Origin: Rhodococcus marinonascens NBRC 14363 | Lineage (GTDB): Bacteria; Actinomycetota; Actinomycetes; Mycobacteriales; Mycobacteriaceae | Direction of reading: 5' to 3' | Assembly (NCBI RefSeq): GCF_001894885.1 | Contig: NZ_BCXB01000027.1 | Span: forward strand, 1-61,271 | DNA length: 61,271 nt | Shown here: in pieces, positions 38,679-39,436 of the stretch | Layout: each line of letters starts with the position of its first letter | Position numbering within the stretch: position 1 is the first letter of the stretch | Made by a program: the position numbers and the translations under genes | The notes under the pieces: model-generated | Database searches by the model: none | Told to the model about the DNA's origin: nothing | Seen by the model: the letters and a program-made list of their open reading frames with translations, nothing else

Positions 38679-39436
38679 TCACTCGTCGTTGGTTTTGGCT
38701 GCATCCTCGATGCAGTACTGACACGTACCCTTGAAGGCGCCCTTGTTCGTGTGATGGCGTGTGAGAGCATTGCGCTTACTAGAGGGCATCGGCCGCCCCC
38801 TTCGGACCGCTGACATCTTTGCGCGCGTCTCTTCGCTTGCTCGTTGCCCGAAGTTAGGGTTCCCTGCGCCCCGCCTCCGTTCGGAAAGTCGCAGACGAGA
38901 TTCCTCCGATATGACATGACCGAAGCTCGGGTGAGACTCCCGAACTTTCCATGATTCGGATTGACGGATCCACTGTTCGAACCCTTCCGTTCGAGAGACC
39001 ACTTCGTACGCTGAGCGTCGGAATGCTTGCGCCCGTAGAACGGATTCTCCTCAGCAAATCGGCTGATCCCAACCCGACCTGTGGAACGAACACGGGCGGC
39101 CTCTCGCATCTCATCGGTCCATACGACGCCGGTCGGCCCTAGTCCTCCTTGCGACAAGTTGAGCAGCGGCTGACCGTCACGCCGGAGATGTGCAATCCAG
39201 CTGATCTCGGCCTCGCCGAGTTTGTCGAGTCCCTCGATCCAATCGAGTTCGTCGACTACGACCTCATTGCGGTCCTGCTTCCGGAGCCAGTCGTAGAACG
39301 GAGTCTTGCGGCCTCCGGCGGCAGCCTCTAGGTGCTGACGCAACCGGAAATGCGCAGAATTGGTCGTCAGACCGACATAGCGGTAGTCGAACTCCGACCG
39401 CAGCCGAATCCCGTAGATCACACCACCTGTCGCCAT
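38679..39436 (-). pseudogene. GIY-YIG homing endonuclease with NUMOD3 motifs, frameshifted
   Basis: The first frame (from ATG 39436) encodes a GIY-YIG nuclease: GVIYGIR and YVG strands (residues 5-23) and the helix with catalytic Glu GEAEISWIAHL (about 75-83). A NUMOD3-type motif ENPFYGRKHSDAQRTKWS follows. Near 38940-38956, at SVNPNHGK, the reading frame shifts by -1, and the second frame continues with further NUMOD3 repeats (SHPSFGHVISEESRLRLSE and NPNFGQRASEETRAKM) and a final CQYC. The full length would be about 250 residues, normal for this family. It lies co-directionally between nrdE and nrdF with 39 and 17 free bases on the sides. Most likely a decayed free-standing homing endonuclease. 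Confidence 0.8.

Follow-up and report, generated by a model that had tools for sequence, protein, structure and literature searches.

The question raised by this locus is how a gene resembling a homing endonuclease came to stand inside a ribonucleotide reductase operon, and whether it can still act there. The window, i.e. the whole stretch of 61,271 nucleotides analysed here (Rhodococcus marinonascens NBRC 14363, contig NZ_BCXB01000027.1), reads on its minus strand in the order nrdE, a frame-split homing endonuclease gene (HEG) and nrdF. The first of these (39476..41659), the likely target gene, encodes the alpha subunit of 727 aa and the last (37687..38661) the beta subunit of 324 aa; both were recognized from their ORFs, Pfam and NCBIfam, the latter naming both products class Ib, and both are open and uninterrupted. 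The HEG starts at 39436, separated from nrdE by 39 bp (39437..39475), and stops in a second frame at 38679, separated from nrdF by 17 bp (38662..38678). According to Pfam, alignment and the predicted fold of a homologue, its N-part (38936..39436, frame 1) holds the GIY-YIG catalytic domain and the start of the NUMOD3 region, and the C-part (38679..38956), defined by ORF, Pfam and alignment, holds the NUMOD3 repeats and a C-terminal Cys-x-x-Cys; the frames overlap at about 38936-38956. When aligned, the two parts match residues 2-167 and 169-252 of an intact homologue, so that one frame offset divides otherwise complete halves. The first-pass annotation had placed a GIY-YIG/NUMOD3 gene in this orientation between nrdE and nrdF, with 39 and 17 free bases at its sides and a frameshift at about 38940-38956; the coordinates hold, and the frame change, lying between family residues 167 and 169, falls inside the range given. 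As developed below from sequence comparison, the window gene is a frame-broken, free-standing GIY-YIG/NUMOD3 HEG whose intact relatives probably spread by intronless homing behind nrdE. As for the surroundings, a long hairpin directly 3' of nrdF (37608-37684), for which Rfam gives chance-level microRNA matches alone, is probably a terminator, and plus-strand ORFs of 426, 217, 78 and 167 aa (34914-37596) lie in a row, converging on nrdF.

The window N-part matches the Pfam GIY-YIG model weakly (17.1 bits, below the cut-off of 22.6) and the C-part matches NUMOD3 with 48.9 bits (E 6e-13); in 21 homologues submitted to Pfam, NUMOD3 was found in all 21 and GIY-YIG (E<=0.01) in 13. The GIY-YIG superfamily is marked by its Tyr/Gly motif strands and by a catalytic Arg and Glu, and in this family, whose proteins are about 250 aa long, Y8, Y20, G22, R31, E77 and N93 are invariant in 32/32 homologues and are all kept in the window N-part. 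An AlphaFold model built from the 32 homologues, with a mean pLDDT of 74.8 and its confidence limited to roughly the N-terminal 90 residues, gave the I-TevI catalytic domain (1mk0, 1ln0) as its top three PDB matches (probability 0.92-0.99, TM by target 0.68-0.73), at Foldseek E-values of 0.11-0.45, above 0.001. The title of the matched PDB entry mentions Glu75 of I-TevI, and the NUMOD-type stretch matches the I-TevI DNA-binding domain 1i3j (E 0.06). Moreover, the PHROG 'homing endonuclease' family phrog_314 is matched by three family members (L002, L246, L247). The protein is a predicted endonuclease, which would cut DNA. Membership of the HNH/MobE group was ruled out, since Pfam and NCBIfam returned no models other than those of GIY-YIG/NUMOD3 and group I intron endonucleases. 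A group I intron remnant was also discarded, since Rfam gave no group I intron at E<=1 in window positions 37000-42600; the HEG is free-standing, outside any intron or intein.

When the N-part was compared with 5.8 billion proteins, 384 homologues were obtained at E<=1e-3 among 584 candidates, and 119 non-self homologues among the matches listed were 65-81% identical over 91-100% of the 167 residues, so that a chance ORF is not in question. Hosts among the matches listed include Rhodococcus, Gordonia, Nocardia, Mycolicibacterium/Mycobacterium, Mycolicibacter, Arthrobacter and relatives, and the copy of Rhodococcus wratislaviensis (P0003) is nearly identical to that of G027, from the window's genus. 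The distribution is sporadic: the HEG was present in 2/28 genomes of the window's genus, in 11/301 genomes and 7/31 genera in the family scan (nrdE being found in 293/301) and in 5/394 genomes in the class scan, three of these new. Between 16 and 25 changes of state are needed to place its presence on the nrdE core trees. The plasmid collection gave no HEG match.

The place occupied is constant. In one-per-species genomes, all 35 named loci recovered with the HEG query have nrdE directly upstream. In 14 of the 35, nrdF comes straight after the HEG; in Nocardia- and Mycolicibacterium-type loci the HEG is followed by something other than nrdF. The HEG lies right behind nrdE in 11/11 carriers of the family scan and adjoins it in the 3/3 carriers newly found in the class scan. 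Over 43 non-redundant loci the nrdE-HEG spacer measures 26-53 nt in every case, and 22 have nrdF no more than 1 kb away; some of the 43 had been retrieved by way of nrdE, and for those the adjacency is no independent test. The address of the HEG is the 3' end of nrdE, and nrdE is the likely target because the HEG stands behind it even where nrdF is not next. The niche proposed at first, between nrdE and nrdF, is right for the window and has to be narrowed for the family to the nrdE side.

If the gene is an insertion, alleles without it should be found, and the comparison of the nrdE-nrdF gap across the genus, suggested in the first-pass annotation, returned them as predicted: the nrdE end could be read in 26/28 genomes, 24 of these 26 being HEG-less, with gaps of 27-82 bp in 18 and of 1.36 kb in six. 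One of the latter (L058) has a reverse SPFH-like ORF in the gap. An inverted repeat, in one case an almost perfect palindrome of some 40 bp, lies in the short gap of many HEG-less members of the genus (within L039-L063), and its sequence varies between species; HEG alleles are without it. Beyond the genus, the gap of Gordonia L115 and L128 measures about 840 bp and contains a different ORF, and longer inserts are found in genus g6. The genes in the HEG-less gaps of L115, L128, L139 and L145 (the last two from g6), coding for about 250 and 364 aa, indicate that the gap accepts other inserts too; as far as seen, the other occupants inspected are not HEGs.

Evidence for homing comes also from the flanks. 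HEG-bearing alleles have a foreign nrdE end, of about the last 15-40 codons, with sharp edges with respect to HEG-less sisters and, where nrdF follows the HEG, the first nrdF codons are foreign as well. Between G027, which carries the HEG, and its HEG-less sister G008, 2/47 nrdE codons differ at 640-686 and 16/41 at 687-727; the differences in nrdF comprise codons 1-5 and 8-10 and then 4/49 as far as codon 59. In the window, nrdE codons 684-708 (25 codons) are identical to those of the HEG-less relative G007, after which 10 of the 19 codons 709-727 (39479..39535) differ, and of the first five nrdF codons (MRDKL, 38647..38661) the first four lack an equivalent in G007 and the fifth is different. 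The same was seen on a wider scale with 134 non-redundant loci (38 with and 96 without the HEG), using pairs with 96-100% identity over the nrdE core: nrdE codons 712-727 are 94.7% alike in HEG-less pairs (48 pairs) versus 78.2% in mixed pairs (27), and nrdF codons 5-12 are 95.2% alike (38 pairs) versus 78.5% (13), while at nrdF codons 20-80 the figures are 95.5% and 93.9%. In this set, the drop at the ends of both genes is confined to pairs of one HEG-bearing and one HEG-less allele. Out of 10 chosen sister pairs, seven showed an excess of tail differences (p<0.05) and three, all Gordonia, did not; no excess was found either in several HEG alleles lacking a near HEG-less relative (L012, L014, L027, L029, L030, L035 and L133). 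Carrier tails are not uniform, as pairs in which both alleles bear the HEG (core 96-100%) average 82.6% tail identity (six pairs, 69-98%), and the Nocardia copy L016 has a distinct, GG-type nrdE end. Judged from the comparisons, such sharply bounded exchanges of the flanks are what homing with co-conversion leaves behind. On this view the enzyme would cleave a HEG-less nrdE close to its 3' end, within the last codons or nearby, and the break, mended on a HEG-bearing template, would take up the HEG and the adjoining end of nrdE at once. The earlier proposal of intronless homing into ribonucleotide reductase genes thus gains support from comparison through the fixed position, the empty alleles and the swapped flanks.

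Within the tail, one codon stands out. Codon 721 lies beside the redox Cys-x-x-Cys of NrdE and begins 21 nt before the stop codon; in the window (39497..39499) it is AAC (Asn). It starts with GG in 131/151 HEG-less alleles, in 3/37 alleles with an open-frame HEG and in 3/6 with a broken one. Residue 721 is Asn in 32, Gly in six, Leu in three, Met in one and Ser in one of the 43 carriers, and Gly in 131, Asn in 13, Glu in four and Met in three of the 151 non-carriers; the resulting not-GG:GG ratios of 37:6 and 20:131 give a Fisher value of 4e-19, in which kinship is ignored. Taking kinship into account, among 20 independent HEG-discordant pairs on the nrdE core tree not-GG sided with the HEG in 11.9 and with its absence in 0.0 (sign test, median p 0.0005). 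A scan of 144 variable positions over nrdE codons 640-727 ranked 721.2 and 721.1 highest, with 10.4 and 8.9, the next reaching 5.8, and in the first set of 134 loci the same two positions led (8.9 to 0.5; next, 4.1 to 0.1). The rule that Asn721 signals the HEG gave way to 'not GG', a rule that is not without exceptions: L012, L016 and L017 combine an open-frame HEG with GG, and 20/151 HEG-less alleles are not GG. The Met or Leu of the Microbacteriaceae-type L180/L212 and L181 is uninformative, since their HEG-less neighbours L213-L215 also have Met.

The change at codon 721 is likely an immunity change near the predicted cut site, and departure from GGN would protect the HEG-bearing allele from cutting. 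There is an appreciable chance that the codon is only a passenger of the co-converted donor ends, unrelated to immunity, as it lies inside the converted tract and the three loci just named keep GG with an open HEG frame. Against this, the other tail sites are linked far less (the third best with 5.8, as opposed to 10.4 and 8.9), and open-frame HEG alleles carry various non-GG codons (AAT, AAC, CTT, CTC, TCC, ATG). Moreover, codons 720-721 are the sole differences among the last 19 between G113 and G231; between G308 and G328 those differences are codons 714, 720 and 721.

As regards the state of the window copy, the HEG family as a whole is under purifying selection, with a median dN/dS of 0.09 over 48 pairs and a maximum of 0.25. 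Compared with G027, the window gene has dN of 0.136 in the N-part and 0.157 in the C-part (dS 1.38 and 1.16), and since the C-part is as constrained as the N-part, the break is likely recent. That the gene is in truth whole, its offset being an assembly error or decoded by frameshifting and its enzyme active, is rather unlikely: this equal conservation of both parts, the single lesion, the preserved catalytic residues and an assembly in 156 contigs speak in its favour, but broken relatives are common (4/11 carriers in the family scan and 6/43 non-redundant loci) and break at differing places, and nrdE and nrdF on either side are open. Furthermore, 37/43 copies read in a single frame and the others break elsewhere, so that programmed frameshifting as a family trait was rejected as unlikely; from the original alternative, 'decayed or read by frameshifting', the second half becomes unlikely as far as the family is concerned. 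The window HEG likely no longer makes a full-length enzyme, with the HEG-type nrdE end (Asn721) persisting beside it.

Transfer of the gene is also recorded in the family. Between Gordonia L003 and L004, dS is 0.093 for the HEG and 0.384 for nrdE, a difference which points to a recent HEG transfer. The HEG and nrdE trees agree broadly on genera, with a supported disagreement inside Nocardia, where L009 and L010 are sisters in the HEG tree (99/94) and the nrdE tree groups L010 with L007, L008 and L016 (100/99), without L009. These data bear on the idea that the gene is a long-established host component of the nrd operon, e.g. a regulator with a nuclease fold, inherited vertically, often lost and not homing today. 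The low dN/dS, the same place in many families and a HEG tree which, by broadly tracking genera, also fits much vertical descent would agree with it; nevertheless, the gene is rare (11/301), its catalytic residues are invariant, the nrdE and nrdF edges are swapped in HEG-bearing alleles, the HEG is younger than nrdE between L003 and L004, and the L009/L010 pairing goes against the nrdE tree, all of which make it improbable. It is also improbable that the insert is neutral and travels through common homologous recombination around the nrd genes, its nuclease contributing nothing, since, even if plain recombination can yield short foreign tracts and some pairs have the tract on one side only, the same landing point in 43/43 loci, the short tracts edged at the insert in several genera and the selection acting on the protein sequence call for an active product.

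Returning to homing, its possible vehicles were looked for among phages. The N-part query gave 11 GenBank phage records with 27-42% identity, three of which were examined (Talia1610, Sixama and GMA2). Arthrobacter phage Talia1610 (L243, 724-5136) has a complete operon nrdH-nrdI-nrdE-GIY-YIG-nrdF, with its GIY-YIG gene (gene 111) in the same place as the window HEG; unlike the latter, it overlaps both neighbours (nrdE by 29 bp), is only 36% identical over the N-part and follows an nrdE which keeps GGC at codon 721. In Gordonia phage Sixama (L244, 3498-4169) a related gene immediately precedes those of thymidylate kinase and thymidylate synthase, which make up a further cluster of nucleotide genes, and in GMA2 the relative stands among unnamed genes. 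A viral scan with the single N-part found no relative; an alignment query retrieved four IMG/VR contigs with closer relatives (47-70%), all four ordered nrdE-HEG-nrdF, and when the Talia1610 protein served as query, ten weakly related genes were obtained, beside none of which a close nrdE stands. Two ORFs of L246 match phage families (tail fibre assembly and unknown) and L247 also encodes a phage-type glycosyltransferase; the short contigs L245 and L248 may be bacterial. Codon 721 is GGC in L245, AAC in L246, GAG in L247 and GGC in L248 (where frames are damaged), so that, with Talia1610, 3/5 viral or phage copies keep GG. A phage vector is possible on these sequences, and phages with nrd operons would carry the HEG between hosts.

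Free-standing homing endonucleases have been described in phages, in PMC2988022, PMC3984707, PMC10448857 and PMC3653736, and three known systems can be compared with the present one. MobE, of phage T4 and relatives, likewise stands free between the genes of the large and small ribonucleotide reductase subunits, on the same strand and with no intron, and is said in PMC2988022 to spread with co-conversion; nevertheless, it is an HNH enzyme of phage class Ia operons with nrdB as listed target, whereas the window family is GIY-YIG/NUMOD3, belongs to class Ib operons, is found mostly in bacterial chromosomes and likely targets the nrdE side. Intronless homing has its type case in the Seg endonucleases of T4, which are likewise free-standing and GIY-YIG; for them the same source (PMC2988022) reports marker exclusion by co-conversion and cut sites at distances of hundreds or even thousands of bp; by contrast, the swapped tract of the window family starts at the gene, with codon 721 about 21 bp before the nrdE stop. 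I-TevI, the GIY-YIG enzyme encoded in the T4 td intron, is the best fold match for the N-part and, as stated in PMC2988022, cuts 23-25 nt from its insertion site; compared with the 21 nt between codon 721 and the stop, this makes the geometry plausible, no more. I-TevI is intron-encoded, whereas Rfam finds no group I intron at the window HEG and nrdE and nrdF are uninterrupted. According to PMC3653736, phage nrdE and nrdF host intron- and intein-borne endonucleases and mobE lies between class Ia genes, and a review (PMC3984707) refers to little evidence for horizontal movement of bacterial introns among species. Searches of the open-access literature (PMC) listed no paper that describes an endonuclease gene placed between actinobacterial nrdE and nrdF.

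In this context, a broader reading may be put forward, tentatively and with somewhat less than even confidence: a HEG family with one address, the 3' end of nrdE, would shuttle between phages and actinobacterial chromosomes, each landing rewriting the redox-active C-terminus of an essential enzyme, with Gly721 beside the Cys-x-x-Cys changed to Asn as an immunity mark, and broken copies like that of the window would represent the decay stage of an ongoing cycle of invasion, decay and loss. The chromosomal family keeps a readable record in the form of empty sites, sharply swapped gene ends, a candidate immunity codon and broken copies, and this record spans several bacterial families as well as phage nrd operons. 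If true, a selfish gene would be editing the active-site end of an enzyme on which the supply of DNA precursors depends.
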